From positions 124,001 to 188,000 of the forward strand of contig NZ_CANMUA010000004.1 in assembly GCF_947500995.1 (NCBI RefSeq): a stretch of 64,000 nt of DNA, given 5' to 3'. Below are positions 171-63,320 of the stretch, piece by piece. Position numbers and translations under genes: made by a program. The notes below the pieces were generated by a model, which saw nothing but the letters and a program-made list of their open reading frames with translations, was not told the DNA's origin and made no database searches. The stretch comes from an uncultured Serinicoccus sp. Its GTDB lineage: Bacteria; Actinomycetota; Actinomycetes; Actinomycetales; Dermatophilaceae. Within the stretch, counting starts at the first letter, position 1, and each line of letters starts with the position of its first letter.

Positions 171-985
171 ATATCACGCAGGTGCCCGACGCCATGGCGG
201 AGGTGCACGACGAGTCCCGGACCCGGGACCGCGTGCGTCGCGCCGTGGGGGAACGGGCGCCGGTGACGGCGAGCGCGCTGGCCAAGGAGCTGGGGCTGAC
301 CCCTGCGGCCGTGCGTCGCCACCTGGACGCCCTGGACGAGGCCGGGCTCATCGCCGAGCACGACGGGCCGCTGCCCGGCCGCCGGGGACGTGGTCGCCCC
401 GCGCGGGCCTACGTCCTCACCTCCCTGGGGCAGGAGCAGTTCCGCACCAGCTACGACGGGGTGGCCAACTCCGCGCTGCACTACCTCGCCGACCGGGTGG
501 GGGTCGCCGCGGTCGAGTCCTTCGCCGAGGCCCAGATCGAGCAGCTCGAGCAGCGCCTGCGCGCGTCCGTGGACCGTGCCGTCGCCGACGCCGGGAGCGA
601 CGACCTGCAGACGCGCACGGCCGCCCTGGCCAAGGCGCTCTCGCACGAGGGGTATGCCGCCTCCGCCCGCCCCGTGGGGGAGGGGACCGGGCTCGCCGGC
701 CTGCAGCTGTGCCAGGGCCACTGCCCCGTCCGCGAGGTGGCCACCGAGTTCCCGCAGTTCTGCGAGGCCGAGACCAAGGCCATCGCCCGCATCCTCGACG
801 TGCACGTCCAGCGGCTGGCGACGCTGGCCGGGGGCGAGCACGTCTGCACGACCTTCGTGCCGATCGGCGCCCTCGGGACCGCACCGCCGAGTGCGGAAGA
901 AAGAGCGAGTGCGCCGCCGTTCGTCATACCGAGGACACCTGACCGCACAGACCACACCGACCGCACCGCCGACGAGAGGACGTGA
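164..985 (+). CDS. sufR: SufR, iron-sulfur-sensing repressor of the suf operon
   Basis: SufR is a dimeric DNA-binding repressor that senses Fe-S status and controls the downstream sufBDCSU genes. This 273-residue protein has an N-terminal winged helix-turn-helix (about 25-85, including [20 protein letters not shown]). The C-terminal half carries four cysteines, C183, C187, C200 and C228, of which C187-x12-C200 has the spacing of SufR cluster ligands. The ATG at 164 was chosen because it fits a leaderless start over the operator; ATG 194 is a shorter alternative and neither has a convincing Shine-Dalgarno. sufB follows after 1 nt. The tail after residue 240 is low-complexity. The family call is firm and the start is less certain. 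Confidence 0.88.
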
Positions 986-986
986 C

Positions 987-2408
987 ATGAGCACCAACAT
1001 CGAGGAGCTCAACCCGGGCCTGAAGGACCTGGGCAAGTACGAGTACGGCTGGGCCGACCGGGACGAGGCCGGAGCCTCGGCGCGGCGCGGGCTCTCCGAG
1101 GCCGTCGTGCGCGACATCTCGGACCGGAAGAACGAGCCGCAGTGGATGCTGGACCAGCGCCTCAAGGCGCTGCGCCTCTTCGGCAAGAAGCCGATGCCCC
1201 ATTGGGGCGCGGACCTGTCGGACATCGACTTCGACAACATCAAGTACTTCGTGAAGTCCACCGAGAAGCAGGCCACCAGCTGGGAGGACCTGCCCGAGGA
1301 CATCCGCAACACCTACGACCGTCTCGGCATCCCCGAGGCCGAGAAGCAGCGGCTCGTCGCCGGCGTCGCCGCGCAGTACGAGTCCGAGGTCGTCTACCAC
1401 CAGATCCGCGAGGACCTGGAGGAGAAGGGCGTCCTGTTCCTGGACACCGACACCGCCCTGCGCGAGCACGGCGACCTGTTCCGTGAGTACTTCGGGTCGG
1501 TCATCCCCTCGGGCGACAACAAGTTCTCCGCGCTCAACACCGCCGTCTGGTCCGGGGGCTCGTTCATCTACGTGCCCAAGGGTGTCCACGTCGACATCCC
1601 GCTGCAGGCCTACTTCCGGATCAACACCGAGAACATGGGCCAGTTCGAGCGCACCCTCATCATCGCCGACGAGGGCTCGTCGGTGCACTACGTCGAGGGC
1701 TGCACCGCCCCGATCTACAAGACCGACAGCCTGCACAGCGCGGTCGTCGAGATCGTGGTGAAGAAGAACGCCAAGGTGCGCTACACCACCATCCAGAACT
1801 GGTCGAACAACGTCTACAACCTCGTCACCAAGCGGGCCACCTGCGACGAGGGCGCGACCATGGAGTGGATCGACGGCAACATCGGGTCGAAGGTCACGAT
1901 GAAGTACCCGGCCGTCTTCCTGCTCGGCGAGCACTCCAAGGGCGAGACCCTGTCCGTCGCCTTCGCGGGCGAGGGCCAGCACCAGGACGCGGGCTCCAAG
2001 ATGGTGCACGCCGCGCCGCACACCTCCTCGACCATCGTGAGCAAGTCGGTGGCCCGTGGTGGCGGCCGGTCGTCCTACCGCGGCCTGGTCCAGATCAACG
2101 AGGGCGCGCACCACAGCCGGTCCTCGGTCGTCTGCGACGCGCTGCTGGTCGACCAGATCTCCCGGTCCGACACCTACCCCTACGTCGACGTCCGCGAGGA
2201 CGACGTGCAGATGGGCCACGAGGCGACCGTCTCCAAGGTGTCCGAGGACCAGATGTTCTACCTCATGTCCCGAGGCATGTCCGAGACCGAGGCCATGGCG
2301 ATGATCGTGCGCGGCTTCGTGGAGCCGATCGCCCGCGAGCTGCCCATGGAGTACGCCCTCGAGCTCAACCGCCTCATCGAGCTGCAGATGGAAGGAGCCG
2401 TCGGCTGA
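987..2408 (+). CDS. sufB: SufB, Fe-S cluster assembly scaffold
   Basis: SufB is the scaffold subunit of the SufBCD complex on which Fe-S clusters are built in the cytoplasm. The 473-residue product is full length, with conserved family stretches such as [19 protein letters not shown] and [10 protein letters not shown]. It ends with the helical region shared with SufD ([20 protein letters not shown]). No intein interrupts it, unlike the M. tuberculosis gene. The ATG is preceded by GAGAGGA at 974-980. It starts 1 nt after sufR and its stop overlaps the sufD start, so translation is probably coupled. Confidence 0.97.
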
Positions 2409-3628
2409 TGTCGCTTCTTGTCGACGAGACGACCCAGGACCACCAGGACCCCCAGGCCCAGATCGGCGGGGACCACCGCATCCCCGACCAGTCCCGCGCA
2501 GCGCGCACCCGGTCCTTCGACGTGGACGCCTTCGGCGTCCCGACCGGGCGCGAGGAGGAGTGGCGGTTCACGCCGGTCGACCGGCTGGCCGGTCTCTTCT
2601 CCGACGCCGCCACCGACGACCGGGAGGGTGACGCCGCCGCCGACGTCGCCGTCCAGGCCCTCGACGGCGTGACTGTGGGGACGCTGGCCCCGGGCCAGGC
2701 GCCCCGCGGCACCGTGCTGGTGCCCGAGGACCGCGGCGCGGCCGTCGCCTCGGCCAACACCGGGCAGGCCCTGCACGTCGCGATCGCCGCCGAGGCCGAG
2801 CTGTCCCAGCCGGTGCGGGTCGACGTCACCGGCCGCGGCGCGGGCCGCCGCTCCAACGGGCACGTCGTGCTGGAGGCCGGCGCGCACAGCAAGGCGCTGG
2901 TCATCCTCGACCACACCGGGGCCGCGGACCACACCGGCAACCTCGAGGTCCTTGTCGGGGACGGCGCGGAGGTCACCGTCGTGTCCCTGCAGCGCTGGGA
3001 CGACGAGGCCCTGCACCTGGCGCAGCACGAGGCGCTCGTGGGCCGGGATGCGACCTACAAGCACATCGCGGTCTCCATCGGCGGCGGCATCGTGCGGATG
3101 AACTCCAACGTCCGGTATGCCGGGCCCGGCGGGGACGCGACGCTGCTCGGCGTCTACTTCGCCGACGCCGGTCAGCACCTGGAGCACCGCTCCTTCGTCG
3201 ACCACAACGCCCCCCGGTGCACCTCGCTGGTGACCTACAAGGGCGCCCTGCAGGGCGACACCGCCCGCACGGTCTGGGTGGGCGACGTGCTCATCCGGGC
3301 CGAGGCCGAGGGCATCGACACCTACGAGCTCAACCGCAACCTCGTGCTCACCGACGGCGCGCGCGCCGACTCGGTCCCCAACCTGGAGATCGAGACCGGT
3401 GACATCGCCGGTGCGGGTCACGCGAGCTCGACCGGACGGTTCGACGACGAGCAGCTCTTCTACCTCATGTCGCGCGGCATCACCGAGGACGAGGCCCGGC
3501 GCCTGGTCGTGCGGGGCTTCTTCGCCGACATCATTGCCAAGATCGGGGTCCCGGAGGTCGTGGAGACCCTCATGACGGCGATCGACGAGGAGCTCTCGCT
3601 CACCATGGGGAGGACCCCCGCCGCATGA
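2408..3628 (+). CDS. sufD: SufD, Fe-S cluster assembly protein
   Basis: SufD pairs with SufB and SufC in the scaffold complex and helps acquire iron. The 406-residue product has the SufD N-terminal extension and the motif GREEEWRFTPVDRLAG. A beta-helical core follows, and the C-terminal FYLMSRGITEDEARRLVVRG is clearly paralogous to SufB. Its ATG shares one base with the sufB stop (TGATG), and its own end overlaps the Rieske gene by 4 nt. No separate promoter is visible, so it belongs to the suf transcript. Confidence 0.96.
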   Translation: MSLLVDETTQDHQDPQAQIGGDHRIPDQSRAARTRSFDVDAFGVPTGREEEWRFTPVDRLAGLFSDAATDDREGDAAADVAVQALDGVTVGTLAPGQAPRGTVLVPEDRGAAVASANTGQALHVAIAAEAELSQPVRVDVTGRGAGRRSNGHVVLEAGAHSKALVILDHTGAADHTGNLEVLVGDGAEVTVVSLQRWDDEALHLAQHEALVGRDATYKHIAVSIGGGIVRMNSNVRYAGPGGDATLLGVYFADAGQHLEHRSFVDHNAPRCTSLVTYKGALQGDTARTVWVGDVLIRAEAEGIDTYELNRNLVLTDGARADSVPNLEIETGDIAGAGHASSTGRFDDEQLFYLMSRGITEDEARRLVVRGFFADIIAKIGVPEVVETLMTAIDEELSLTMGRTPAA

Positions 3629-4790: not shown

Positions 4791-6128
4791 ATGACGACGG
4801 GACAGCTGGCGGCCCAGCCGCTGAGCCGGGTGGAGATCGGCCGGATCCGCGCCGACTTCCCCCTGCTGCGCCGCACTGTGCGCGGCGGGCGTCCCCTCGT
4901 CTACCTCGACAGCGGCGCCACCTCGCAGAAGCCCCGGGTCGTGCTGGACGCCGAGCGGGAGTTCTACGAGCGGCACAACGCCGCCGTGCACCGCGGTGCG
5001 CACCAGCTGGCCGAGGAGGCCACGGACGCCTTCGAGGGCGCGCGGGAGACCGTCGCGCGCTTCCTGGGGGCCGGCACCGGCGAGGTCGTCTTCACTAAGA
5101 ACGGCACCGAGGGCCTCAACCTGCTGGCCTACGCCTTCTCCAACGCGGGGGCGCCCGGCGCCCTCGACGGTGCGGACGACTCCTGGGCGCGGCGGCTGCG
5201 GCTGGGCACCGGTGACGAGGTCGTGGTGACCGAGATGGAGCACCACGCCAACCTCGTGCCGTGGCAGGAGCTGTGCCGGCGCACCGGGGCCACGCTGCGC
5301 TGGATCGGGGTGGACGACGACGGCGAGCTCGACGTCGCCCGTCTCGACGAGGTCGTGGGGGAGCGGACCCGCGTGGTCGCCCTCACCCACGTCTCCAACG
5401 TGCTCGGCACCGTCAACGACCTCGGCCCCGGGTCGCCGGTGGTCGCGGCGGCCCGCGCCGTGGGCGCGCTCGTCGTGGTGGACGCCTGCCAGTCCGCGCC
5501 GCACCTCGACATCCGTCCGCTCACCGCCGCGGACTCCGGGGTGGACGCCCTGGTCTTCACCGGGCACAAGACCCTCGGGCCCAGCGGGGTCGGGGTGCTC
5601 TGGGCGCGGCGTGGGCTGCTGGAGGCCATGCCTCCCTTCCTCACCGGGGGCTCGATGATCGAGGTCGTCCGGATGGAAAGGTCCACCTATGCCCCGCCGC
5701 CGGCGAAGTTCGAGGCGGGGGTCCCCATGGCCGCGCAGGCCGTCGGTCTCGCCGCCGGGCTCGACTACCTCACCGAGGTGGGGCTGGACCGGGTGCACGC
5801 GCACGACCAGCAGCTCATGCGGCATACCCTCGACCTGCTGGCCGACCGGCCCTGGCTCCGGGTGCTGGGCCCGCCGGACCCGCAGCGCCGGATCGGTGCG
5901 GTCTCCTTCGTCGCCGACGGGGTGCACCCGCACGACGTGGGCCAGGTGCTCGACGACTCCGGCGTCGCGGTCCGCACGGGTCACCACTGCGCGTGGCCGC
6001 TGCACCGACGGTTGCGGGTGCCCGCCTCGACCCGCGCGAGCTTCGGGATCTACACCAGCCTGGAGGAGGTCGACACCCTCGCCGAGGCGCTCGACCGGGT
6101 GCCCGGCATCTTCGGACTGGCGGGCTGA
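4791..6128 (+). CDS. sufS: SufS, group II cysteine desulfurase
   Basis: SufS is a PLP enzyme that takes sulfur from L-cysteine as a persulfide and hands it to SufU. The 445-residue product has the PLP lysine K260 (TGHKTLGPSG) and the catalytic Cys400 in RTGHHCAWPL. Around residues 115-135 there is an insertion rich in Gly and Ala (SNAGAPGALDGADDSWARRL), somewhat longer than in many homologs. ATG 4791 is preceded by GGACGGAGGA. The gene lies 19 nt after sufC and 16 nt before sufU, matching a SufS-SufU pair. Confidence 0.96.
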   Translation: MTTGQLAAQPLSRVEIGRIRADFPLLRRTVRGGRPLVYLDSGATSQKPRVVLDAEREFYERHNAAVHRGAHQLAEEATDAFEGARETVARFLGAGTGEVVFTKNGTEGLNLLAYAFSNAGAPGALDGADDSWARRLRLGTGDEVVVTEMEHHANLVPWQELCRRTGATLRWIGVDDDGELDVARLDEVVGERTRVVALTHVSNVLGTVNDLGPGSPVVAAARAVGALVVVDACQSAPHLDIRPLTAADSGVDALVFTGHKTLGPSGVGVLWARRGLLEAMPPFLTGGSMIEVVRMERSTYAPPPAKFEAGVPMAAQAVGLAAGLDYLTEVGLDRVHAHDQQLMRHTLDLLADRPWLRVLGPPDPQRRIGAVSFVADGVHPHDVGQVLDDSGVAVRTGHHCAWPLHRRLRVPASTRASFGIYTSLEEVDTLAEALDRVPGIFGLAG

Positions 6129-7011: not shown

Positions 7012-7668
7012 ATGACCTCGACCCACCTCGTCGACGTCGCTCCCGAGCGGCTCGCGGGGTGGGTCGACCGGTTCACGGCCTCCCACGGGCCGCTGTCCTG
7101 GTCGGTCGTGACCGACGACACGGCCGGGGCCTGGGAGGCGCGGGCCCAGGACGGGTCGTGGGCCCGGATGCGGTCCTGGCGCACCCCGGGCGCGGACGAC
7201 ACCGAGGGGCCGGCGCCGGGCTGGGAGCAGTCGCCTGCGCTGCTGGTGGTCCTGGTCCGACGTGGGGGGTATGCCGTCGCCCTGGTCGGCCCGGACGGGT
7301 CCCTGGCGCGGCACAAGGTCGGTACCCGGCACGTGCAGTCGCGCACGGCGGCCGGAGGGTGGAGCCAGCAACGCTTCGCCCGTCGCCGGGCGAACCAGGC
7401 GGACGTGCTCGTCGAGGCGGTGGCGGGGCATACCGTGCGGCTGCTGGGGGAGGGGTCGACGGACCGGGGGAGCGTGCCCGGGGGCCTGGTCCTGGGCGGT
7501 GACCGCGGCCTGGCCGAGGCCGTCCTGGAGGAGCTGCCGGCGTCGACGGGCGCCGTGACCGGGCTGCCGCGGCGGACGCTGTGGGACCTCCCGGACCCGC
7601 GCCGCGCGGTCCTCGACGACGCGGTCCGGCGCGGCCGCGCGGTGCGCGTGCAGGTTCACAACGCCTGA
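7012..7668 (+). CDS. acVLRF1-like peptidyl-tRNA hydrolase/release factor
   Basis: This 218-residue protein matches the actinobacterial Vms1-like release factor 1 family. The recognisable core is HVQSRTAAGGWSQQRFARRR (about 107-126), the loop used by eRF1/Vms1-type proteins to reach peptidyl-tRNA. Relatives are proposed to release nascent chains from stalled ribosomes or 60S/50S peptidyl-tRNA. The gene begins 16 nt after the suf operon on the same strand, so it is probably co-transcribed. Assignment is from motif recall; activity is inference. Confidence 0.75.
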   Translation: MTSTHLVDVAPERLAGWVDRFTASHGPLSWSVVTDDTAGAWEARAQDGSWARMRSWRTPGADDTEGPAPGWEQSPALLVVLVRRGGYAVALVGPDGSLARHKVGTRHVQSRTAAGGWSQQRFARRRANQADVLVEAVAGHTVRLLGEGSTDRGSVPGGLVLGGDRGLAEAVLEELPASTGAVTGLPRRTLWDLPDPRRAVLDDAVRRGRAVRVQVHNA

Positions 7669-13771: not shown

Positions 13772-16010
<2,239 letters not shown>

Positions 16011-18196: not shown

Positions 18197-19444
18197 GTGC
18201 GCATCGACATCCTCACCCGCGAGTACCCCCCCAACGTCTACGGCGGAGCCGGCGTCCACGTCGCCGAGCTGACCCGCGCCCTGCGCGCCGTCGACGGCAC
18301 CCAGGTGCAGGTCAGAGCGTTCGACGAGCCCGCGGACGAGCCCGGCACGACCGGGTATGCCGTCCCCGAGGACCTCGCGGACGCCAACGGTGCGCTGCGC
18401 ACCCTCGGCGTCGACCTGCTCATGGCGCGCGACGTCGCCACCGGCGGCGCGGACCTCGTGCACAGCCACACGTGGTACGCCAACATGGGCGGGCACCTCG
18501 GGGGCGCGCTGGCGCAGATCCCGCACGTCGTGAGCGCGCACAGCCTGGAGCCGCTGCGTCCGTGGAAGGCCGAGCAGCTGGCCGGTGGGTATGCCGTCTC
18601 CTCCATGGTCGAGAAGGTCGCCTACGAGGGCGCGGCCGGGGTCATCGCCGTCTCCGCGGGCATGCGCCGGGACATCCTGGCGGCCTACCCCGACGTGGAC
18701 CCGGACCGGGTCCACGTCGTGCACAACGGCATCGACGCCGACCTGTGGCAGCGGGACACCTCCGACGCCGCGGCCGAGTTCGTGCGGTCGAAGGGGATCG
18801 ACCCGCACGCGCGCAGCGTGGTCTTCCTCGGGCGCATCACCCGGCAGAAGGGCCTGCCGTTCCTGCTCAAGGCCCTGCGCGCCCTCGACGACGACGTGCA
18901 GGTCGTGCTGCTGGCGGGCGCGCCGGACACCGAGGAGATCAAGGCCGAGGTCATCGCCCTGGTGGACCAGCTGCGGACCGAGCGCGGCGAGCAGGCGGCG
19001 CCGGTGGTGTGGATCGACGACATGCTCCCGCGCCACCAGGTCATCGCCGTGCTCTCGCACGCCACCGCCTTCGTCTGCCCCTCCGTCTACGAGCCGCTGG
19101 GCATCGTCAACCTCGAGGCGATGGCCTGCGGCGCCGCCGTGGTCGCGACCGCCACGGGCGGCATCCCCGAGGTCGTCGTCGACGGCGAGACCGGCTGGCT
19201 GGTGCCCATCGAGCAGGTCCAGGACGGCACCGGCACGCCGGTCGACGAGGACGCCTTCGTCGACGACCTGGGCCGGGCCCTCGTCGAGGCCTGCTCGGAC
19301 GCCGAGGAGGCGCGCCGCCGTGGCGAGGCCGGGCGGGCGCGGGCCGTGGAGCAGTTCAGCTGGACCACGGTCGCCGAGCGCACGGTCGAGGTCTACCGCG
19401 CGGTCCTGGAGGGTCGGGCCCCCGACCTGCCCGAGCTCGGCTGA
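18197..19444 (+). CDS. glgM: GlgM-type alpha-maltose-1-phosphate synthase (GT4; often labelled GlgA)
   Basis: This 415-residue GT-B glycosyltransferase has the N-terminal glucan-synthase loop PPNVYGGAGVHVAEL. It also has the acceptor-side HSHTWYANMGG and the GT4 motif PSVYEPLGIVNLEAM with its EX7E acid/base pair. The actinobacterial homolog beside glgC transfers glucose from ADP-glucose to glucose-1-phosphate, giving maltose-1-phosphate for GlgE. That assignment (GlgM rather than GlgA) rests on the size, GT4 class and glgC neighbour. GTG 18197 follows TACGTT by 6 nt. It ends 6 nt from a convergent gene. Confidence 0.88.
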   Translation: MRIDILTREYPPNVYGGAGVHVAELTRALRAVDGTQVQVRAFDEPADEPGTTGYAVPEDLADANGALRTLGVDLLMARDVATGGADLVHSHTWYANMGGHLGGALAQIPHVVSAHSLEPLRPWKAEQLAGGYAVSSMVEKVAYEGAAGVIAVSAGMRRDILAAYPDVDPDRVHVVHNGIDADLWQRDTSDAAAEFVRSKGIDPHARSVVFLGRITRQKGLPFLLKALRALDDDVQVVLLAGAPDTEEIKAEVIALVDQLRTERGEQAAPVVWIDDMLPRHQVIAVLSHATAFVCPSVYEPLGIVNLEAMACGAAVVATATGGIPEVVVDGETGWLVPIEQVQDGTGTPVDEDAFVDDLGRALVEACSDAEEARRRGEAGRARAVEQFSWTTVAERTVEVYRAVLEGRAPDLPELG

Positions 19445-19450
19445 GGCCCC

Positions 19451-20215
19451 TCAGCGCCAGCCGGCCAGGTGCAGGACGGCGGTGTTGGTCGCGTCGGTCA
19501 GGGCGGTGGCGGCCACCGCCTGCAGGCGCCGCAGCGTGTGCCCCCGCGAGCTCGTGGTCGACAGGTCGACCGAGTCCAGGGCCGGGTCCAGCCCGGCGTC
19601 GGTGAGCGTCAGGACACCCGCGGCCAGCGCGATGAGCCGCTCGGCCCGCCCCGGCAGCCCGGCCGGCAGCCCCCAGGGCTGGGCCTGCGAGGCGCGGCGC
19701 AGCCCCGCGAGACGTTCCTGGGCCGCGGCACCGAAGGGCACGCCCCCGACGGCGACCAGGGCCTCGGTGTGGGTGGCGAGCTCGGTCCGCAGGCCCAGCT
19801 CGACCTGGCCGAGGTCGAGCGCCTCCACGCGGTGGGTGGGGTAGGGCTCGGCGTCGTGCAGGGTCCAGCGCGCCGACCAGCCCTGGTCGCCCACCGGCCC
19901 GAACTGCGCCAGCTCCGGCACCAGCGCCCCACCGAGGCCCGGGATGAAGACGCACTCGGCCGCCTCGCTGGCCGCCGCGAGCAGGTCGGCCGAGCCGCGC
20001 GGCATACCCGTCAGGTCACCGGGGCGGGGGAGGGCCACGAGCACGGCCCGCTCACCCAGGCCCTGCCACATGCCCAGCGGCTCGGTCAGGCCCTCCACGT
20101 GGTCGATGTCCGGCAGGGCGCGGTCGGCGACCGTGGACACGTCGGCGCGCCCGGCGAAGGCCGCGGTGGCCCACAGGGCCACCCGCACGCTCGCCGGCAG
20201 CTCGTGATCAGGCAT
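19451..20215 (-). CDS. Conserved actinobacterial hypothetical protein
   Basis: The product has 254 residues, no signal peptide, no membrane segment and no motif I can assign. The middle contains PGLGGALVPELAQFGPVGDQG and a Trp-rich stretch (GWSARWTLHDAEPYPTHRV), and the C-terminus is helical. ATG 20215 is 7 nt after TACCAT on the - strand (complement of 20223-20228), which decides this start over upstream codons. It is divergent from an ABC ATPase gene and ends 6 nt from glgM. Confidence 0.7.
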   Translation of the reverse strand: MPDHELPASVRVALWATAAFAGRADVSTVADRALPDIDHVEGLTEPLGMWQGLGERAVLVALPRPGDLTGMPRGSADLLAAASEAAECVFIPGLGGALVPELAQFGPVGDQGWSARWTLHDAEPYPTHRVEALDLGQVELGLRTELATHTEALVAVGGVPFGAAAQERLAGLRRASQAQPWGLPAGLPGRAERLIALAAGVLTLTDAGLDPALDSVDLSTTSSRGHTLRRLQAVAATALTDATNTAVLHLAGWR

Positions 20216-20259: not shown

Positions 20260-21111
20260 ATGAGCGATGTCCTCGAATTCGCCGGTGTCGGCGTCCGGCG
20301 TGGCACGACCGACCTGCTCACGGGGGTGGACTGGTCGGTCGAGGAGGGGGAGCGCTGGGTGGTCATCGGGCCCAACGGGGCCGGCAAGACCACGCTGCTG
20401 CAGCTCGCCTCCGGCCGCATGCACCCCACCACCGGCGTCGCCGGGGTCCTGGGCGAGGTGCTGGGTGCCGTCGACGTCTTCGAGCTGCGCCCCCGCATCG
20501 GGGTCTCCAGCGCCGCCGTCGCCGACCGGATCCCCGACGAGGAGCGGGTCAGCGATGTCGTCGTCACCGCGGCCTACGGCGTGGTCGGCCGCTGGCGCGA
20601 GCAGTACGACGAGACCGACGACCAGCGCGCCGCCGAGCTGCTCGAGGCCCTCGGGGTGGCGCACCTGGCGACCCGACGGTTCGGCACCCTGTCCGAGGGG
20701 GAGCGCAAGCGGGTCCAGATCGCCCGGGCGCTCATGACCGACCCCGAGCTCATGCTGCTGGACGAGCCGGCCGCCGGCCTGGACCTGCGCGGCCGGGAAG
20801 ACCTCGTGGGCCGGCTCAGCGTGCTCGCCGAGGACCTCGACGCCCCGGCCCTGGTGCTGGTGACGCACCACGTCGAGGAGATCCCGCCCGGCTTCACCGA
20901 CATCCTCATGCTGCGGGAGGGCTCGGTGGTCGCCGCCGGTCCCATCGACCTCACGCTGACGGCGGAGAACCTCTCGGCGACCTTCGGCATACCGCTGATG
21001 GTCGACCGGCACGGGGACCGCTGGTCGGCCCGCGCCGCGACGACGGCGTCCGCGGACAGGCCTGGATCCGGCGCGGCCCCGGCCGGCGCCGCGCCCCGCA
21101 CCACCGCGTGA
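20260..21111 (+). CDS. ABC transporter ATP-binding protein
   Basis: The 283-residue protein is a single ABC ATPase domain with Walker A GPNGAGKTT (about 41-49), signature LSEGERKRVQIARAL and Walker B LMLLDEPAAGLD. A disordered Ala/Pro tail ends it. The sequence resembles the YlmA/ModF-like stand-alone ATPases (TVIP-type), and no permease is adjacent, so its partner is unknown. The gene overlaps the TauE-like gene by GTGA, and that gene overlaps the methyltransferase by ATGA: a three-gene operon. Confidence 0.88.
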   Translation: MSDVLEFAGVGVRRGTTDLLTGVDWSVEEGERWVVIGPNGAGKTTLLQLASGRMHPTTGVAGVLGEVLGAVDVFELRPRIGVSSAAVADRIPDEERVSDVVVTAAYGVVGRWREQYDETDDQRAAELLEALGVAHLATRRFGTLSEGERKRVQIARALMTDPELMLLDEPAAGLDLRGREDLVGRLSVLAEDLDAPALVLVTHHVEEIPPGFTDILMLREGSVVAAGPIDLTLTAENLSATFGIPLMVDRHGDRWSARAATTASADRPGSGAAPAGAAPRTTA

Positions 21112-24011: not shown

Positions 24012-24024
24012 GCGCGGCGACGTG

Positions 24025-24118: not shown

Positions 24119-24662
24119 CGGGGACCTCCACGGCCAGGCCCTCGACGACCTCGGCGCCCGGCAGCCCGGCAGCCATCGCGCCGGGCAGCCGCAGCTTGCT
24201 GCGCCTCAGGCCCGAGCCCACGACGATCTGTCCGCGCTGCACGACCCGGGCGTCGACCAGCACCGGCCAGTCGCCCGGCACGCCGACCGGGGTGATGCCG
24301 CCGTACTCCATCCCGGTCCTCCCGACGGCGTCGTCCATGGACATGAACGAGCACTTGCGCACGTCGAGACGCTTGCGGACCGTCGTGTTGACGTCGGCCC
24401 GGGTATGCCCGAGCACCAGGACCGCGCACACGCGCTCCTCACCGGCACGCGCCCCGACGATGACGATGCAGTTGGCCATGTCGCGCATGTCCCACCCCGT
24501 GGCCTCCACCAGCACGGCCGTGTCGGCGTGGTCGGGGTCGATCTCGGCCACCTCGACGACGGACACGTCCTGACCGTCCGCCGCCATCGCCTCCAGGGCC
24601 TGCCGGACCGGCTCAGCGAGCAGGTCGGGACGGTCCAGGGCGGGGGTCCAGGTGAGGCTCAC
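24114..24662 (-). CDS. YbaK/EbsC family protein (aminoacyl-tRNA deacylase-like)
   Basis: The 182-residue protein has the YbaK/ProX fold used for hydrolysing mischarged tRNAs. Visible family features are MANCIVIVGARAGEERVCAVLV, the KRLDVRKCSFMS segment with its conserved Lys, and TGMEYGGITPVGVP. The C-terminal VVGSGLRRSKLRLP is also typical. The GTG start overlaps the stop of the upstream YbhB gene (GTGA). The exact tRNA substrate is unknown. Confidence 0.88.
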   Translation of the reverse strand: MSLTWTPALDRPDLLAEPVRQALEAMAADGQDVSVVEVAEIDPDHADTAVLVEATGWDMRDMANCIVIVGARAGEERVCAVLVLGHTRADVNTTVRKRLDVRKCSFMSMDDAVGRTGMEYGGITPVGVPGDWPVLVDARVVQRGQIVVGSGLRRSKLRLPGAMAAGLPGAEVVEGLAVEVPA

Positions 24663-29697: not shown

Positions 29698-29765
29698 GGG
29701 TCTCTCCTGGGTCGGGGTCGGGGTCTGGGGTATGCCGAGGGGATGGGTCCGAGGGGAGGCGCGGG

Positions 29766-31802: not shown

Positions 31803-31871
31803 GCCTGCAGGGTACGCCCGCGACGGAGCCCCGCCGTGGACAACCTGCGGCCGGTCGGCGATGCTGCCGGT

Positions 31872-32768: not shown

Positions 32769-32778
32769 GAGGTATGCC

Positions 32779-43099: not shown

Positions 43100-43836
43100 T
43101 GGCCATCTGCATCCTGCTCCGGCACGGTCGCACCCAGGCCAACGCCGACGGCATCCTCGCCGGCTGGACGCCGGGCCTCGGGCTGGACGAGACCGGGGCC
43201 GGCCAGGCCCGGGACGCCGGGTCACGACTGGCCGCCACCCCCCTGGCGGCGGTCGTCGCGAGCCCGCTGCAGCGGTGCCAGGAGACGGCCGCCGCGGTGC
43301 TGGCCGCGCAACCGGCGGACCGGGCGGTGCAGCGGCATACCGAGGAACGGCTGGGCGAGGCGAGGTACGGCGCGTGGACCGGCCGGCCGCTCAAGGAGCT
43401 GGCCGAGGAGCCGCTGTGGCGTGAGGTGCAGGACCGTCCCTCCGCGGTGACCTTCCCCGCGGACGAGGCGTTCGCCCACGAGTCGATGGCGCAGATGGCG
43501 GCGCGTGCTGTCGAGGCGGTCGCCGAGTGGGACGCCCGGGTCGAGGCCGAGCACGGCCCCGGCGCCGTGTGGGTGGCGGTGAGCCACGGCGACGTCATCA
43601 AGGCGATCCTCGCCGACGCGCTCGCGACCGCGCTGGACGACTTCCAGCGCATCGTCGTCGACCCGGCCTCGCTGAGCCTCGTGCACCGCACGCCCGGCCG
43701 GCCGTTCGTCCTGCGCACCAACGACACCGGCAGCGACCCGGTGGACCTGTCCGGTCTGGTGGCGCGCCTCGCCACGGACGGAGCGACCGGCGACGCCGAG
43801 GTGGGTGGGGGCGCCGGGAGCAAGGACGTAGGCTGA
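43099..43836 (+). CDS. Histidine phosphatase, MSMEG_4193 family
   Basis: The 245-residue protein has the RHG motif (LLRHGRTQANADG), the second-half Arg (SPLQRCQET), the acid EERLGEARYG and the final catalytic His in AVSHGDVIKAIL. This is the MSMEG_4193 subfamily conserved beside DUF3090 and SCO1664 genes in actinobacteria. The substrate is unknown. It overlaps the LLM gene by one base (TGATG). Confidence 0.92.
   Translation: MAICILLRHGRTQANADGILAGWTPGLGLDETGAGQARDAGSRLAATPLAAVVASPLQRCQETAAAVLAAQPADRAVQRHTEERLGEARYGAWTGRPLKELAEEPLWREVQDRPSAVTFPADEAFAHESMAQMAARAVEAVAEWDARVEAEHGPGAVWVAVSHGDVIKAILADALATALDDFQRIVVDPASLSLVHRTPGRPFVLRTNDTGSDPVDLSGLVARLATDGATGDAEVGGGAGSKDVG
43829..43834 (+). promoter_or_regulatory. 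-10 element TAGGCT of the DUF3090 gene
   Basis: The box overlaps the phosphatase gene end and lies 7 nt before ATG 43842. Confidence 0.6.
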
Positions 43837-50138: not shown

Positions 50139-52807
<2,669 letters not shown>

Positions 52808-53157: not shown

Positions 53158-55185
53158 ATGACGGCGGGTGCGGACGAGACGACCACGACGGCCTCCGCAC
53201 CCACCACCCCCACCACGGCGATCATCGTCGTCCTGTCGCTGTGCGGCACCCTCGTCTCGCTGCAGCAGACGCTGGTCCTGCCGCTGCTGCCGGTGTTCCC
53301 GGAGATCCTGGGCACGACCAGCGACAACGCGTCCTGGCTGGTCACCGTCACGCTGCTCACTGCGGCGGTCGGCACCCCGATCGTCTCGCGGCTGGCCGAC
53401 ATGTTCGGCAAGCGGCTGCTGCTCATCGTCTGCATGTGGGCGGTCATCGCCGGGTCGGTCGTCTCGGCCCTCAGCTCCGAGCTCGCGCTCGTCGTGCTCG
53501 GCCGCGGGCTCAGCGGGCTCGGTGCCTGCCTGGTGCCCGTGGGCATCAGCATCATGCGCGACCACCTGCCGGCCGACCGGGTCGGCTCGGGCGTGGCGCT
53601 CATGTCGGCGACGCTGGGCATCGGTGGCGCGATCGGGATGCCGCTGGCCGGCGTCATCTACGACAACCTCGACTGGCACGCGCTGTTCTACGTCTCCGGC
53701 GGGTTCGCCGTCGTCATGCTCGTCGCGGTCTACCTCGTCGTGCCGGAGTCGACGGTCAAGACCCGGGGCCGGTTCGACTACGTGGGTGCGGTGCTGCTGT
53801 CGGTGGCGCTGACCTGCTTCCTGCTGGCGGTGAGCAAGGCCGGCACCTGGGGCTGGGCCTCGCCGCTGACCCTCAGCCTCCTCGCCGCCGCCGGGCTGGT
53901 GCTGGCGGCGTGGGTGCCGTGGGAGCTGCGGACCGGCCAGCCGCTGGTGGACATCCGCACCTCGATGCGCCGCACGGTGCTGCTCACCAACGCCGCCTCG
54001 GTCCTCATCGGCTTCGCGATGTTCGCCAACTTCCTCACCTCGGCCCAGCAGGTGCAGATGCCGGCCGACACCGGCTACGGCTTCGGGCTGTCCGCGGTGT
54101 CCACGGGCCTGGTGCTGCTGCCCAGCGGGCTGCTCATGGTGGCGATGTCGCCGGTGTCCGCCGGGCTCATCCGCCGCCACGGCGCCCGGGCGGTCCTCAT
54201 CGCCGGGGCGGTGACCATCGCCGTGGGCTTCATCGGCCGCTCGCTGCTGCACCGCAGCGTGCTCGAGGTGGTCATCACCTCCAGCATCGCCTCGCTCGGC
54301 ACCGCCCTGGCCTTCGCGGCCATGCCCACGCTCATCATGCGCGCCGTCCCCATCACCGAGACCGCCTCGGCCAACGGGCTCAACACCCTGCTGCGCTCCA
54401 TCGGCACGTCCTCGGCCTCCGCGCTCGTGGCCGCCGTCTTCGCCGCCACCATGACCGCCACCGCCAGCGGCGTGCCGGCGCCCTCGTTCGCGGCATACCA
54501 GCTCATCTTCTGGGCCGGCGCCGCCGCCTCCCTCGGCGGCGGGCTCATCGCGGCCTTCATCCGGCGCCCGCAACGGGTGAGCGTCGAGGAGCCGGGCGCG
54601 GTGGCGGCCCCGACGGGGGAGCGCACCGAGGTCAAGCACGCCGGGATGGGCGACCTGCCCGAGCTGCTCGTGCGGGGGCGGGTCGTGGGCCCACGGGGCG
54701 GCCCGCTGCGCCAGGCGGTCACCACGGTGCTGCGCCCCGACGGCACCCACATCGACTGGGGCCGCACCGACAACGACGGGCGCTACACCCTGGCGCTGCC
54801 CGAGCCGGGGGCCTACCTGCTCGTCGTGTCCGCGGACGGCTGGGCCCCGCAGTCGTGCCTGGTGGACCTCGCCGTCGGGCACGAGGAGGACGTGACGATG
54901 ACGCGGCGGCTGCTGCTCTCCGGGCACGTGCTCGACGACGGGCGCCCGCTGGGCGGGGTGCTCGTCTCGCTCATCAAGCACTCCGGGGAGTACGTCGCCA
55001 CCGCCCACACCGACGCCGACGGCTCCTACGAGATCGGGCTGCCGCCCCCCGGCCGCTACGTCCTCACCGCCGTCGACCACGACGCCGGCCGCACCCGGTC
55101 CCGGGCGCTCACGGTCCTGGCCACCTCCACGACCCTCGACCTCGACATCGTCACCGGCGTCCCGCGTCCGCGGATCGACGCCTGA
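53158..55185 (+). CDS. DHA2-like MFS transporter fused to two carboxypeptidase-regulatory-like domains
   Basis: Residues about 20-480 form a 12-14 helix major facilitator with the A-motif-like SRLADMFGKRLLLIV and GRGLSGLGACLVPVGI, resembling drug:H+ antiporters. Residues about 500-675 are two beta-sandwich repeats of the carboxypeptidase regulatory-like type. They are RVVGPRGGPLRQAVTTVLRPDG with NDGRYTLALPEPGAYLL, then DDGRPLGGVLVSLI with DADGSYEIGLPPPGRYVL. This fusion is uncommon, and its side of the membrane depends on helix number. The gene lies between arc and dop. Confidence 0.88.
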   Translation: MTAGADETTTTASAPTTPTTAIIVVLSLCGTLVSLQQTLVLPLLPVFPEILGTTSDNASWLVTVTLLTAAVGTPIVSRLADMFGKRLLLIVCMWAVIAGSVVSALSSELALVVLGRGLSGLGACLVPVGISIMRDHLPADRVGSGVALMSATLGIGGAIGMPLAGVIYDNLDWHALFYVSGGFAVVMLVAVYLVVPESTVKTRGRFDYVGAVLLSVALTCFLLAVSKAGTWGWASPLTLSLLAAAGLVLAAWVPWELRTGQPLVDIRTSMRRTVLLTNAASVLIGFAMFANFLTSAQQVQMPADTGYGFGLSAVSTGLVLLPSGLLMVAMSPVSAGLIRRHGARAVLIAGAVTIAVGFIGRSLLHRSVLEVVITSSIASLGTALAFAAMPTLIMRAVPITETASANGLNTLLRSIGTSSASALVAAVFAATMTATASGVPAPSFAAYQLIFWAGAAASLGGGLIAAFIRRPQRVSVEEPGAVAAPTGERTEVKHAGMGDLPELLVRGRVVGPRGGPLRQAVTTVLRPDGTHIDWGRTDNDGRYTLALPEPGAYLLVVSADGWAPQSCLVDLAVGHEEDVTMTRRLLLSGHVLDDGRPLGGVLVSLIKHSGEYVATAHTDADGSYEIGLPPPGRYVLTAVDHDAGRTRSRALTVLATSTTLDLDIVTGVPRPRIDA

Positions 55186-55196: not shown

Positions 55197-56750
55197 ATGG
55201 GCGTCGGCAGGGTCATGGGCATCGAGACCGAGCTCGGCATCACCAGCACGCAGCGGGACGCCGCCGGGCAGCCGGTGACCCCGATGGTCCTCTCGGGCCA
55301 GGTGGTGCGCGCGTATGCCGCGGGCGCACCCGCCGGCGCGGCACTGCCCTCGGCGGCGGGGTGGGACTACGCCGACGAGACGCCGCTGCGCGACGCGCGC
55401 GGCTTCGAGATGGCACGCGCGCTGGCGCACCGCTCGCAGCTGACCGATGTCGAGGACCCGACCATCGCCACCTCGGTGCTGTCCAACGGGGCCCGGTTCT
55501 ACGTCGACCACGCCCACCCGGAGTACTCCAGCCCGGAGGTCACCGGCCCGCTCGCGGCCGTCCGCTGGGACCGGGCGGGGGAGGAGGTGGCCCTCGCGGC
55601 GGTCCGCACCCTCGCGCAGGAGGGCCTGGACGTGCGGCTCTACAAGAACAACGTGGACGGCAAGGGCGCGTCCTACGGCACCCACGAGAACTACCTCGTG
55701 CCCCGGGCGGTGCCCTTCGACCGGCTGGCCGCCCGGCTCATCCCCTTCCTCGTGGCCCGGCCGGTGATCGCCGGGGCGGGCCGCGTGGGGCTCGGGCAGG
55801 CCAGCGAGCGGCCGGGCTTCCAGCTCTCCCAGCGCGCCGACTACCTCGAGGCGGAGATCGGCCTGGAGACGACGTTGCGCCGGCCCATCGTCAACACCCG
55901 CGACGAGCCGCACGCCACCCCGCACCTGCACCGGCGGCTGCACGTCATCGTCGGCGACGCGACGATGGCCGACGTCACCACCTACCTCGCGCTCGGGTCC
56001 CTCTCGGCGGTCCTGCGGGTGATCGAGACCCACCCGCACCTGCTCGACGGGCTGGCCCTGGCGCACCCCGTGGCCGCGGCCCAGCAGGTCAGCCACGACC
56101 CGACGCTGCGGACGACGGTCGAGCTGGCCGACGGCCGACACCTCACCGGGCTGGACCTGCTCGAGGCGCACCTCGGAGCCGCCGAGGAGGCCGCGGCGTC
56201 CGGTCACGAGGCCTGGGCGGAGTCGGGGGAGGCGCACACCGGGCCGCTGCTGCGCCGGTGGCGGGAGGTCCTGGAGACCCTGCGGCGCGACCCGGCCGGG
56301 GCGGCGGGGCAGGTCGAGTGGGTCGCCAAGCAGCAGCTGCTCGAGCGGTTCGCCGAGCGCGCCGGAATGGGCTGGGAGGACCCCCGGCTCGCGGCCATGG
56401 ACATCCAGTGGCACGACCTCGACCCCGAGCGCGGCCTGGCCCGCAAGCTGCGGGCGGCCGGCCGGCTGGAGCGCCTCGTCGGCGACGAGGAGGTCGCGCA
56501 CGCCGTCACCCACCCGCCCGAGGACACCCGGGCGTGGTTCCGCGGCGAGGTGGTCCGGCGCTACGGCGCGGGCGGGGGAGTGCGGGCCGCCTCCTGGGAC
56601 TCGGTCGTGCTCGCCGACGAGCGGGGCCGGCTGCGCCGGGTGCGGATCGAGGAGCCCACCGGCGGGCGCCGGGACCGGGTCGCCGACCTGCTGGACCGGC
56701 ATACCGACGCCGCCGGGCTGCTCTCCGAGCTCGTCAGCGAGGACGTCTGA
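55197..56750 (+). CDS. dop: Dop, depupylase/Pup deamidase
   Basis: Dop deamidates the C-terminal Gln of Pup to Glu and also removes Pup from targets. The 517-residue glutamine-synthetase-like protein begins RVMGIETELGITS. It has the Dop-loop (about 40-80, GGAGWDYADET-like) missing from PafA, plus VDHAHPEYSSPE and [11 protein letters not shown]. It is paralogous to PafA 400 bp downstream. Pup here ends in Gln, so the deamidase activity is needed. ATG 55197 is used; ATG 55215 is a minor alternative. Confidence 0.94.
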   Translation: MGVGRVMGIETELGITSTQRDAAGQPVTPMVLSGQVVRAYAAGAPAGAALPSAAGWDYADETPLRDARGFEMARALAHRSQLTDVEDPTIATSVLSNGARFYVDHAHPEYSSPEVTGPLAAVRWDRAGEEVALAAVRTLAQEGLDVRLYKNNVDGKGASYGTHENYLVPRAVPFDRLAARLIPFLVARPVIAGAGRVGLGQASERPGFQLSQRADYLEAEIGLETTLRRPIVNTRDEPHATPHLHRRLHVIVGDATMADVTTYLALGSLSAVLRVIETHPHLLDGLALAHPVAAAQQVSHDPTLRTTVELADGRHLTGLDLLEAHLGAAEEAAASGHEAWAESGEAHTGPLLRRWREVLETLRRDPAGAAGQVEWVAKQQLLERFAERAGMGWEDPRLAAMDIQWHDLDPERGLARKLRAAGRLERLVGDEEVAHAVTHPPEDTRAWFRGEVVRRYGAGGGVRAASWDSVVLADERGRLRRVRIEEPTGGRRDRVADLLDRHTDAAGLLSELVSEDV

Positions 56751-57112: not shown

Positions 57113-58519
57113 GTGCTGAGCCGCATCATGGGCGTCGAGACCGAGTTCGGCGTCAACGCGACCTTCACCGGCCCCTCCCGGCTCTCCCCGGAGGAGGTCT
57201 CCCGCTACCTCTTCCGCAAGGTCGTCGCCTGGGGGCGGTCGTCGAACGTCTTCCTCGGCAACGGCTCCCGGCTCTACCTCGACGTCGGCTCCCACCCGGA
57301 GTACGCCACCGCGGAGTGCACCGACCTGCTCGACCTCGTCGCCCACGACCGGGCGGGCGAGCTCGTGGTCCAGGACCTCGCGGAGGACGCCGAGCAGCGG
57401 ATCGCGGCCGAGGGCCTGGACGCGACCGTCTACGTGCTCAAGAACAACGTGGACTCCCGCGGCAACTCCTACGGCTCGCACGAGAACTACCTCATCGAGC
57501 GGCGCACCCGCATGGAGCGCCTCACCGACACCCTCGTCCCGTTCCTCGTGACCCGCCAGCTCGTCACCGGTGCCGGGCGGCTGCACGTCGTGGAGCAGCG
57601 GGCGACCTACCTCGTCTCCCAGCGCGCCGACCACATGTGGGAGGACCTGTCCTCGGCGACGACCCGCTCCCGGCCCATCATCAACACCCGCGACGAGCCG
57701 CACGCCGACCCGGAGAAGCACCGGCGCCTGCACGTCATCGTCGGCGACTCCACGATGAGCCAGACCACGACGATGCTGCGGCTGGGCACGACCGACCTCG
57801 TGCTCAAGATGCTGGAGGCCGGCACCGTCGTGCCCGACCTCGTCCTCGCCAACCCCATGCAGGCGATCCGCGAGGTCAGCCGCGACCGGACCGGGCGGAC
57901 CCCGCTGGCGCTGCGCCGCGGCGGCACGATCACCGCGCTGGAGCTGCAGCGCGAGCTGCTCGACCTCACGACCGGGTATGCCCGGGGTGCCGGCCTGCAT
58001 GAGCACCCGGTGCACCGCGACGTCCTGCAGCTGTGGGAGCGCGGGCTCGAGGCGATCGAGACCGACCGGCTGGACCTCGTCGACACCGAGATCGAGTGGG
58101 TCATGAAGAAGAAGCTGCTCGACTCCTACGCGCAGCGCCACGACCTCGAGCCGTGGGACCCGCGGCTGCAGCAGCTCGACCTGGCCTGGCACGACATCCA
58201 CCCGAGACGCGGGCTGGCCCGCATCCTCGAGCGCTCGGGCGCCGCGCGGACCGTGGTCGACGAGGAGCGGATCCGGGCCGCCACGACCGTGCCCCCGGAC
58301 ACCCGGGCGCGGCTGCGGGGGGACTTCGTCCGGACCGCCGCCGAGCACCGCCGGGACTTCACCGTGGACTGGGTGCACCTCAAGCTCAACGACGCCGCGC
58401 AGCGGACGGTGATCTGCAAGGACCCGTTCGCCGCGCAGGACGAGCGGGTCGACGCCCTGCTCGAGCACATCCGCGCCACCAGCGGTGCTCCCACGAAAGG
58501 TTCAGGGTCACCGGGTTAG
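57113..58519 (+). CDS. pafA: PafA, Pup-protein ligase
   Basis: PafA attaches the C-terminal Glu of Pup to lysine side chains using ATP. The 468-residue product starts [15 protein letters not shown] and has [12 protein letters not shown], the ATP/metal site [29 protein letters not shown] and [15 protein letters not shown]. It lacks the Dop loop. GTG 57113 matches the N-terminus of the M. tuberculosis protein (MQRRIMG). In proteasome-bearing actinobacteria prcBA would sit upstream of it. Confidence 0.96.
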
Positions 58520-59790: not shown

Positions 59791-59836
59791 TGGCCGGCGC
59801 ACGGCATACCTGACCTCGAACGAGAAGGAGCACATC

Positions 59837-61775: not shown

Positions 61776-61927
61776 GCCGGTGTCTCAGCCGGCCCGGGGC
61801 GCGGTGCCGCGGGCCGGCACGGGGTGGGGGCGCTCGGTCGCCGGGGTGCGTCGCGCGGGCCGCAGCGGGTGTCGCGGGGAGGATGCGCCGTGGCGTCGAG
61901 GTATGCCGTGGGCGCGGGCGGGGTCAT
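61772..61927 (-). CDS. Leaderless 51-codon upstream ORF coupled to the antiporter gene
   Basis: The frame reads ATG at 61927 to TGA at 61772, giving a 51-residue Pro/Ala/Arg-rich peptide starting MTPPAPTAYLDATAHPP. A TAGGCT box on the - strand (complement of 61934-61939) ends 6 nt before the ATG, exactly as at other genes here. The stop overlaps the antiporter start by ATGA. No homology is known to me. It could be a regulatory leader peptide or an alternative N-terminus arrangement. Translation is inference. Confidence 0.5.
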   Translation of the reverse strand: MTPPAPTAYLDATAHPPRDTRCGPRDAPRRPSAPTPCRPAAPRPGPAETPA

Positions 61928-61933
61928 GCGCTC

Positions 61934-61939
61934 AGCCTA
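61934..61939 (-). promoter_or_regulatory. -10 element TAGGCT of the leader ORF-antiporter unit
   Basis: The complement of AGCCTA ends 6 nt before ATG 61927. The remaining spacer to DUF3866 (61940-62081) shows no gene or clear terminator. Confidence 0.55.
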
Positions 61940-62081
61940 GGTGACCGGCGCGCGAGCGGCGCTCCCTCTGGCCCCATGAGTCACCGCCTGCGGGGACGTG
62001 CACCCGGGCCGGGGATATCTCCGTGTCTGCCGGGTCTTTCCCCGCAGTGTGGGAGCCGTGGTGCTGATGTGGCGGGCGGGC

Positions 62082-63320
62082 CTACGACGGGTCGACCACG
62101 AGCCGGGCGGCGTGGCGGCCGGCGGCCGCGGCGGTGAGGAACGCGGCGGGGTCGTCCCCGAGGCCGCGGCCCATCGTGGACAGGGGGACCGGTACCTGTG
62201 CCAGAGCCTCCGGGAGGCCCTCGGTGGCCACCTTGACCAGCTCGAGGTGCGGCGCGGCCTGGACGAGGTCCCGCGCCTGCCGGTAGACGAGTGCCAGGCA
62301 CTCGCGCAGCGCGACGCTGTCTCCCACGCGTCCGGTGTGCCCGGAGGGCGCGTCCGGTGCATGTCCAGTGCGGGGGGAGGGGGTGTGTGGCGTGCGCCCG
62401 CTGCGGGACGAGGGCAGGTCGGCCCCGTCAGCAGGTGGGGTGTCGGACCCGAGCACGGGGACGGGGAGGTCGGCGGGGTGGGCGAGGACCCGGCCGAAGG
62501 AGGTGGCGCTGTGGTGGGACAGGCCCCGGTGCCGCTCGCGGGCGTCGGCCTGGGACACCCGCAGGCACGCCACCGGGCGTCCGCCGAGCACGGCCGCCGC
62601 GTTGAGCGCCTCGCCCGCGGCCACCCCGGAGAATCCCCACCGGGTGTCGGTGCCGAGGTTGCCCGGGCCCTGGATCACCACGGCCAGGTCGGCCCCGACC
62701 ACGTGCCGGGCCGCCAGCAGCGCGGTGTGCACCGTCACCGCCTCCAGGTCGCCGCCGAACGCCTGCCCGGCGGTGATGGTGCTCTGCAGCCACCCCGCCT
62801 CGCGCAGGCCGGCGACGGTCCGCGACCAGGCCAGGGGCAACGCCGCCCCGTCGGTCATGACGTAGGCGACCCGGGCCCGGGGCCGCTGCGCCCGGACCCC
62901 GGCGAGCACCGCGGGGAGCGCCGAGTGCAGGTCGGTGGCGAGCACCGGCATACCCTCGAGGTCGTCCGCGTGCGCGAGCGTGGCGTGGTGCTCGCCCTCG
63001 GGGTCGTCCACCCCCAGCACCATCGGCTGCAGCGGGGCGTAGCGGCCCTTGACCAGGTGACCGGGCTCACCGGCCGCGCGGCCCGGCCAGGCGTCCGGGC
63101 GGTCGGGGAGGGCGACGACGAGGGCATACCCTCCCGTGCCGAGCCCGCGCTCCAGAGCGGTGACGTTGAGCAGGACCCGGTCGCCCACCACGGCGCTGCC
63201 GACGAGGTCGGGGTAGCCCAGCGCCCGCACCCGCTCGTCCCCGACGTCGACGCCGAGCACCTGCACGCCGGCCCACCCCGGCAGCAGCTCGCGCACCTCG
63301 CCCTCGCGCCACGTGATCAC
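62082..63320 (-). CDS. DUF3866 family protein
   Basis: The 412-residue protein matches DUF3866, often found near pafB in actinobacteria. Family stretches are VVGDRVLLNVTALERGLGTGGYALV, HLVKGRYAPLQ, GMPVLATDLHSALPAVLAG, VIQGPGNLGTDTRWGFSGV and RHRGLSHHSATSFG. A Pro-rich insert of about 45 residues (about 300-345) looks disordered. Function unknown. GTG 63320 lies 8 nt after TAGGCT on the - strand. It is divergent from pafB. Confidence 0.9.
   Translation of the reverse strand: MITWREGEVRELLPGWAGVQVLGVDVGDERVRALGYPDLVGSAVVGDRVLLNVTALERGLGTGGYALVVALPDRPDAWPGRAAGEPGHLVKGRYAPLQPMVLGVDDPEGEHHATLAHADDLEGMPVLATDLHSALPAVLAGVRAQRPRARVAYVMTDGAALPLAWSRTVAGLREAGWLQSTITAGQAFGGDLEAVTVHTALLAARHVVGADLAVVIQGPGNLGTDTRWGFSGVAAGEALNAAAVLGGRPVACLRVSQADARERHRGLSHHSATSFGRVLAHPADLPVPVLGSDTPPADGADLPSSRSGRTPHTPSPRTGHAPDAPSGHTGRVGDSVALRECLALVYRQARDLVQAAPHLELVKVATEGLPEALAQVPVPLSTMGRGLGDDPAAFLTAAAAGRHAARLVVDPS

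Follow-up and report, generated by a model that had tools for sequence, protein, structure and literature searches.

A word of eight nucleotides, GGCATACC on one strand and GGTATGCC on the other, recurs throughout a 64,000-nt stretch of the genome of an uncultured Serinicoccus sp. (the window) and far above expectation in the rest of this genome and in many of its relatives. The word is asymmetric and is maintained against mutation, and in the window genome and three relatives its copies follow an orientation rule, with neighbors on the same strand, but not those on opposite strands, being scarce within about 1 kb. Together with the hundreds to thousands of copies in many genomes of the family, these features suggest a tag by which DNA is labeled as the cell's own in uptake or recombination. 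Our tentative reading, to which we give somewhat less than an even chance, is that the word is a strand-polar relative of the DNA uptake sequences (DUS) used in natural transformation.

Abundance and maintenance of the word

Of the 37 copies in the window, 22 read GGCATACC and 15 read GGTATGCC on the plus strand; the expected total is 0.58 from 100 dinucleotide-preserving shuffles (standard deviation, 0.68; maximum, 2) and 1.1 from a second-order Markov model. A first-pass annotation had counted at least 37 (15 and 22) by eye and had placed them against about two expected copies; an exact recount returns its total and all 15 of its example coordinates, and the large excess stands under both models. 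It also holds genome-wide, with 1,415 copies (752 + 663) in the 3.81-Mb genome, or 1 per 2.7 kb, compared with 8 (4 + 4) for the octamer read backward. In a 464-kb sample of this genome, comprising 400 kb of contig 1 and the window, 218 copies are found, with 8.6 and 11.0 expected from second- and third-order models, respectively. Enrichment across samples is about 25- to 60-fold, and elsewhere in the family the motif reaches a density of up to ~1 per 0.75 kb.

To follow individual sites, we compared the window genome with that of another uncultured Serinicoccus sp. (G030), with 186 kb aligned at 93.6% identity. Motif copies are kept at 69 of 77 sites (90%), compared to 21 of 47 other SSSATASS words (45%; Fisher p = 9e-8) and 122 of 222 SSSWWWSS words (p = 9e-9), and any 8-mer with three A/T positions is conserved in 69% of cases. 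The edges of the conserved block are sharp at 8 bp, with identity of ~0.93 directly outside. Copies are gained and lost mostly by point mutation, as single substitutions make up 14 of the 18 differences counted in the two directions. The word is thus maintained against mutation, and the proposal of the first-pass annotation that it reflects selection at the DNA level, or drive, gains from this conservation, from the 8-bp edges, and from the overriding of codon choice described below.

Acquired DNA is poor in the word, as seen in two genomes of the genus, S. sediminis (G018; L103:8538-9965 and L176-L179) and G002 (L180-L183), where an insert of ~40 kb interrupts comEC close to the conserved SAVSGSNVAI segment. 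Heptamers in these two inserts, which are the basis for scarcity in acquired DNA, number 2 versus 17 and 4 versus 20 in equal lengths of flank (p = 4e-4 and 9e-4, respectively). The S. sediminis insert is a prophage, with a terminase, an SPP1-like portal, and a minor tail protein, and a serine recombinase adjoins the 3' part of comEC. A prophage integrating into comEC would switch competence off.

Exclusion between copies of the same orientation

Neighboring copies less than 1 kb apart are mostly in opposite orientation. Same and opposite pairs number 21 and 61 in the window genome (G000), 142 and 270 in the complete genome G007, 33 and 69 in G188, and 15 and 52 in G135, respectively, and at 1 to 2 and 2 to 4 kb, the two classes are about equal. 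When these four genomes are pooled, with G034 left out, same-orientation pairs at less than 500 bp number 76 versus 187 expected (Poisson p = 3e-20), and opposite pairs number 222 versus 186 expected. Relative to expectation, the same-orientation class stands at 0.21 for distances below 100 bp and climbs to ~1 near 1 kb. Generic avoidance of direct repeats can be set aside, as none of 615 control words of similar abundance in the four genomes is as low as the motif.

The pattern extends to further loci. At less than 700 bp, 11 same and 44 opposite pairs are found in other genera (13 samples, including new loci of G188, G135, and G034, with 0 and 3 in the last), and further loci in this genus give 13 same and 35 opposite, mostly from G030, whose sites are largely shared with the window genome. 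Within the window, the 16 neighboring pairs at less than 1 kb comprise 6 same and 10 opposite, and seven successive copies between 30673 and 33816 alternate in orientation.

Simulation distinguishes two rules by which such copies could be read. If one copy per strand suffices for each 1-kb fragment, only same-orientation pairs are excluded, and if one copy of either orientation is enough, both kinds of pairs are excluded (one parameter set, with four runs for each rule). The data match the per-strand simulation, arguing in favor of a reader that tells the strands apart, has a range of ~1 kb, and needs no more than one copy. This logic is shared by two known kinds of process, single-strand import in transformation and end resection that responds to a Chi-like signal, and would not be expected of methylation, mismatch repair, or nucleoid organization.

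Shape of the word and its dialects

In the window genome, the word is (A)CGGCATACC, and the core common to the family is CGGCATAC. The left flank in the 464-kb sample has C at position -1 in 79% of copies and A at position -2 in 45%. One-letter variants that are over-represented there are mainly edge changes (GGCATACA, 22 versus 1.6 expected; GACATACC, 16 versus 3.0), and most central variants are at or below expectation (GGCGTACC, 22 versus 34.5; GGCATGCC, 20 versus 52.7, both strands), pointing to a core with tolerant edges. Palindromic combinations of the two halves are rare, with GGTATACC at 0 sites and GGCATGCC at 10, compared to 218 for the asymmetric word.

Samples of 100 to 464 kb per genome reveal dialects, in which the core has graded flanks that differ by genus. 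These are ACGGCATACC in G000, GGCATAC with weaker flanks in G007, CRCGGCATAC in G188, ACGGCATAC in G135, and CGNCATAC in G034, where CGTCATAC and CGCCATAC are strongly enriched alongside CGGCATAC. The G034 sample (C1:1-100000) has the loosest core among the motif-rich samples and is the sole one of at least 100 kb without the orientation rule. No second dialect stood out in 100 kb each of G023 and G031, two genomes low in the word. The core read backward, CATACGGC, has 578, 562, 522, and 454 copies in G062, G066, G157, and G034, respectively, and 32 and 40 in G000 and G007, and the genomes rich in it may carry a second related word or dialect.

The palindrome GGCATGCC deserves separate mention, as its counts over both strands together are below expectation in motif-rich and motif-poor genomes alike (20 versus 53 in G000, 2 versus 12 in G007, and 0 versus 10 in G031, with a weaker deficit of 6 versus 9 in G023). 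Avoidance of GCATGC looks like a matter distinct from the motif. We also considered deamination of methylated GGCATGCC as a source of the word and rejected it, because so scarce a palindrome could not supply the number of copies seen.

Distribution across the family

The genome set used here treats as one family Serinicoccus, which NCBI places in Ornithinimicrobiaceae, and Austwickia, which NCBI places in Dermatophilaceae. ComEC of the window genome is 85 to 90% identical to Serinicoccus proteins. Octamer counts in the 31 genomes of the genus run from 38 to 2,180, the latter in G007. For the family, we set cut-offs of our own on raw counts of CGGCATAC, uncorrected by the backward control, with high meaning at least 150 copies/Mb and low meaning fewer than 40/Mb; the 186 genomes then divide into 105 high (up to 1,356/Mb), 65 low, and 16 in between, the last being left out of the gene comparisons below. 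Outside the family, none of 386 sampled genomes of the class lies above ~51/Mb (394 were drawn, 8 of them in the family, and the table was read by eye).

Three genera with high members each include a single bare genome (G023, G065, and G140, the last in the genus of the high G141 and G142). On a tree of ComEC, a single gene with 42 rows of the 44 tried (two stretches were too short, and 5 of 30 ComEC loci were not used), 7 changes between high and low are needed, and well-supported branches demand at least 6 of these. The closest partner of low G140 on this tree is G142, a high genome. Because the core is the same everywhere, a single origin followed by repeated loss with full erosion would be the simplest history.

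Placement in genes and along the chromosome

With genes called in the window genome by our own script, the 174 in-gene copies are divided among the six combinations of frame and orientation as 27, 25, 43, 20, 55, and 4. The scarce class (4 of 174) is the frame that forces a Cys codon, and some frames, such as G-TAT-GCC, are favored. In the 464-kb sample, 44 of 218 copies lie outside called genes or on their borders, compared to 19 expected. The density by midpoint in the window genome is 0.42 per kb in genes and 0.64 to 1.09 per kb between them. Of the ATA codons in the 464-kb sample, 27 of 39 are inside the word, as are 55 of 158 TAT codons; in the window, the figure for ATA is 3 of 5. These larger counts agree with what had been noticed at first pass in the window alone, that copies occur in all frames, on both strands, and between genes, and that rare ATA and many TAT codons sit inside them; with copies in every frame, codon-pair usage in one frame does not explain the word.

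Along the complete chromosome of G007, examined in 25 tiles (500 kb) with replichores that we assigned from a weak GC skew, orientation is unbiased, with counts of 148/147 and 94/84 for the two replichores. All 25 tiles carry copies, from 5 to 31 heptamers per 20 kb. Inverted pairs less than 50 bp apart, taken from four genomes, lie outside genes in 13 of 24 cases, several of them beside the 3' end of a gene, and three that were folded form hairpins with stems of at least 15 pairs.

Individual copies in the window are given here by the strand that reads GGCATACC. Those on the plus strand lie at 5821..5828, 7427..7434, 15071..15078, 20001..20008, 20986..20993, 22127..22134, 23202..23209, 23844..23851, 25523..25530, 29491..29498, 31201..31208, 31928..31935, 33284..33291, 36627..36634, 43334..43341, 50926..50933, 52355..52362, 54492..54499, 56698..56705, 59803..59810, 62947..62954, and 63123..63130. 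Among these, the copies at 20986 (Gly-Ile-Pro), 22127, and 52355 are in the GGC-ATA-CC frame of called genes, and the one at 59803 is outside called genes. On the minus strand, copies lie at 651..658, 3114..3121, 7268..7275, 14861..14868, 18354..18361, 18588..18595, 23981..23988, 24402..24409, 29729..29736, 30673..30680, 31869..31876, 32771..32778, 33809..33816, 57975..57982, and 61900..61907. The copies at 29729 and 61900 are outside called genes, that at 23981 is outside called protein genes, that at 32771 is in the gap between two called genes, and that at 30673 begins the run of seven alternating copies that ends at 33816. A tRNA-Pro (agg) called by ARAGORN at 23960-24051 overlaps the copy at 23981; at gathering score, Rfam gives only a tRNA-Leu, at 26872, in the window, and the tRNA-Pro is probably a false call.

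Discussion

With a little more doubt than belief, we propose that a "self" tag for the exchange of DNA, spread over the whole genome, arose within this family and is read strand by strand, saturating at one copy per ~1 kb of single strand. DNA of dead kin would be bound at the cell surface and drawn in by a competence machine consisting of a Flp/Tad-type pilus, ComEA, and ComEC, with a putative reader recognizing the word on the strand being imported. Fragments with the word on the entering strand would be preferentially imported or recombined, such that a new copy would be transmitted between cells more frequently than the word-free allele and would accumulate. Given that one copy per strand would be enough for each fragment, a second copy of the same orientation within ~1 kb would gain little, and a copy of the opposite orientation, serving the other strand, would still be favored. 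We infer from the genomic patterns that the reader acts in DNA uptake and recognizes the imported strand, that the word spread by transformation, and that the bare genomes are losses.

Transformation is preferred as the underlying process because the hallmarks of DUS and of the uptake signal sequences (USS) of Pasteurellaceae are found here, namely, density, dialects, lack of orientation bias, hairpin pairs, and rarity in acquired DNA. The spacing of same-orientation copies, near the size of conversion tracts, also favors uptake; for Neisseria, conversion tracts of 1.1 to 1.7 kb are given (PMC2397512).

Candidate components of such a machine are present. An SLBB-HHH protein of the ComEA type is encoded next to ComEC in the window genome. 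The genome also encodes a DUF4244 protein, which we take to be the Flp-type pilin of actinobacteria, and in several relatives, the DUF4244 gene lies 2 to 3 kb from that of the T2SSE/TadA ATPase. Across the family, matches to ComEC are found in 180 of 186 genomes, to the T2SSE ATPase in 185, and to DUF4244 in 172. ComEA, ComEC, and tad/Flp pili are described as the transformation machinery of M. luteus (PMC12849477, PMC6370729). Within the genus, a block of ~8.7 kb with a T2SSE/TadA-like ATPase is present in G030 (L184, C1 ~252900-261500) and absent at the matching place in the window genome, and a tad-type cluster may come and go.

Comparison with DUS of Neisseriaceae (PMC1939737, PMC3630211, PMC2397512) shows an asymmetric word of similar density, with a core and dialects and no chromosomal orientation bias. 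The differences lie in the sequence itself and the phylum, in the lack of a type IVa pilus marker in the window genome, and in exclusion, a property of how copies are arranged and not of uptake, being only between same-orientation copies here. The letters ATGCCGT common to DUS and the word are probably a chance resemblance. USS are likewise similar in density, and their close inverted pairs are usually at gene ends (PMC7811141), with a different word and machinery; inverted pairs that form hairpins are described for both DUS and USS (PMC2397512, PMC7811141). Strandedness is reported to matter for DUS, with recognition being mainly double-strand dependent (PMC5031613, PMC12061091). In the portions of the DUS and USS literature available to us, including PMC2346458, PMC7811141, and PMC5217627, one-sided exclusion is not described. 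Among the matches listed in our literature search, which left most subscription journals and preprints outside its reach, there was no published account of the word or of an actinobacterial uptake sequence; none of these matches has the octamer as a word, and one unrelated match contains CGGCATAC.

Several observations weigh against uptake by strand. None of the tested genes separates carriers from bare genomes, with ComEC in 100 of 105 high and 65 of 65 low genomes and DUF4244 in 98 of 105 and 59 of 65. The genes comEC, DUF4244, and T2SSE occur in high and low genomes alike and give no sign of competence loss in the low ones. PilM, which marks the type IVa pilus used for DUS in Neisseria, is missing from the window genome, and just 7 of the 186 genomes have a match. 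The orientation rule is missing from 100 kb of G034, where same and opposite pairs below 1 kb number 39 and 37 and 3 of 12 control words are lower than the motif. The core variant GGCCTACC exceeds expectation in the 464-kb sample (52 versus 29.3), and it is raised too in motif-poor G023 (12 versus 6.5). The backward core is raised in some motif-rich genomes, as in G062 with 578 versus 1,660. Genes and gaps differ little in density in G007, the tandem gaps of G135 show no such contrast, and the excess of inverted pairs below 50 bp is clear only in G188 (11 versus ~3). Finally, uptake in H. influenzae is reported to be independent of copy orientation (PMC1939737).

The reader in the proposed uptake system could be either a version of some universal protein or another protein outside the handful of families tested. 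Comparison of high with low genomes at 20 comEA/comEC loci and 20 Tad loci (15 with the DUF4244 position examined) showed no evident extra component, a weak test given that a gene caller trained on the window genome missed genes in several of the relatives. No receptor of the Tad type was recognizable from sequence at these loci.

The other process with per-strand logic is a Chi-like signal, in which an end-resecting helicase-nuclease other than RecBCD, AdnAB for example, reads one strand as it moves in from an end of the DNA and turns to recombination on meeting the word. The first copy met would suffice, a nearby copy of the same orientation would be redundant, and the other orientation would serve enzymes arriving from the other side. 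Chi sites of RecBCD/AddAB are short and asymmetric and are read directionally, and with a signal of this kind, same-orientation copies would be expected to exclude one another, the two orientations to be independent, and pairs to become gradually more common with distance, all as observed. However, recC does not track the motif, with matches in 44 of the 105 high genomes and 37 of the 65 low ones (89 of 90 matches are counted, as that in Austwickia chelonae, G032, at E 3.7e-4 was dropped). Known Chi sites favor the leading strand, in contrast to the lack of replichore bias in G007, and both an enrichment of 25- to 60-fold and patchiness across a family are atypical of Chi. We consider this explanation, the main rival to uptake, unlikely, although far from negligible.

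An uptake sequence blind to orientation, exactly of the DUS/USS type and read as double-stranded DNA by a minor pilin, would share the compositional hallmarks that are largely found here. By simulation, however, it would deplete opposite neighbors, which instead stand at 222 versus 186 expected below 500 bp, and PilM is lacking from the window genome, making this version of uptake improbable.

The first-pass annotation had called the word HIP1-like and had suggested a methylation, repair, or chromosome-organization site. HIP1 of cyanobacteria is a palindrome. Its octamer-sized core, extreme over-representation, presence in coding and noncoding DNA, and patchiness resemble those of the word, which could then be common through methylation or biased, Vsr-like mismatch repair. 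In the strict sense, the likeness fails, as the word is asymmetric, its palindromic halves are rare, and an orientation rule is impossible for a palindrome; orientation-dependent exclusion would also be a poor fit to methylation or mismatch repair. Neither Vsr (42 of 105 high, 25 of 65 low) nor the PF01555 methylase (39 of 105, 28 of 65) tracks the word, with 184 of 186 genomes searched and the denominators kept at 105 and 65, and G007, with its 2,180 octamer copies, has neither. This speaks against these two proteins as the basis of the suggested methylation or repair site, with PF01555 as the one methylase family covered. A HIP1-like origin is, overall, distinctly improbable.

A site for chromosome architecture or translocase polarity would account for a word that is genome-wide, maintained, and asymmetric. 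KOPS-, matS-, and SRS-like sites are oriented along the replichores or concentrated at the terminus, and the balanced orientations and the copies in all 25 tiles of G007 argue against such a role, as does exclusion within 1 kb, which would not be expected; we regard chromosome organization as very improbable. A by-product of codon or amino acid usage or base composition, for which the preference for frames such as G-TAT-GCC might speak, has next to no probability and is ruled out by the counts, by the presence of copies in all frames, on both strands, and in gene gaps, by the capture of most ATA codons by the word, and by relatives of similar composition that lack it (G023 and G031, 100 kb each).

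A review from 2016 lists tags that restrict transformation in two families, Pasteurellaceae and Neisseriaceae (PMC5031613). If the uptake reading is true, the word would be an independent further case in high-GC Gram-positive bacteria, far from these two proteobacterial families, and with more than 100 carriers and many bare relatives, the preference of bacteria for their own DNA would become a comparative problem. One-sided exclusion separates mechanisms that leave equal numbers of copies and calls for a reader of one strand. Were the word instead a Chi-like signal, it would be a strong case of such a signal independent of RecBCD. As a tag for uptake, it would allow the length of imported tracts, and the polarity with which DNA enters the cell, to be read from genomes of this family, and it might help in the transformation of organisms that are hard to engineer.

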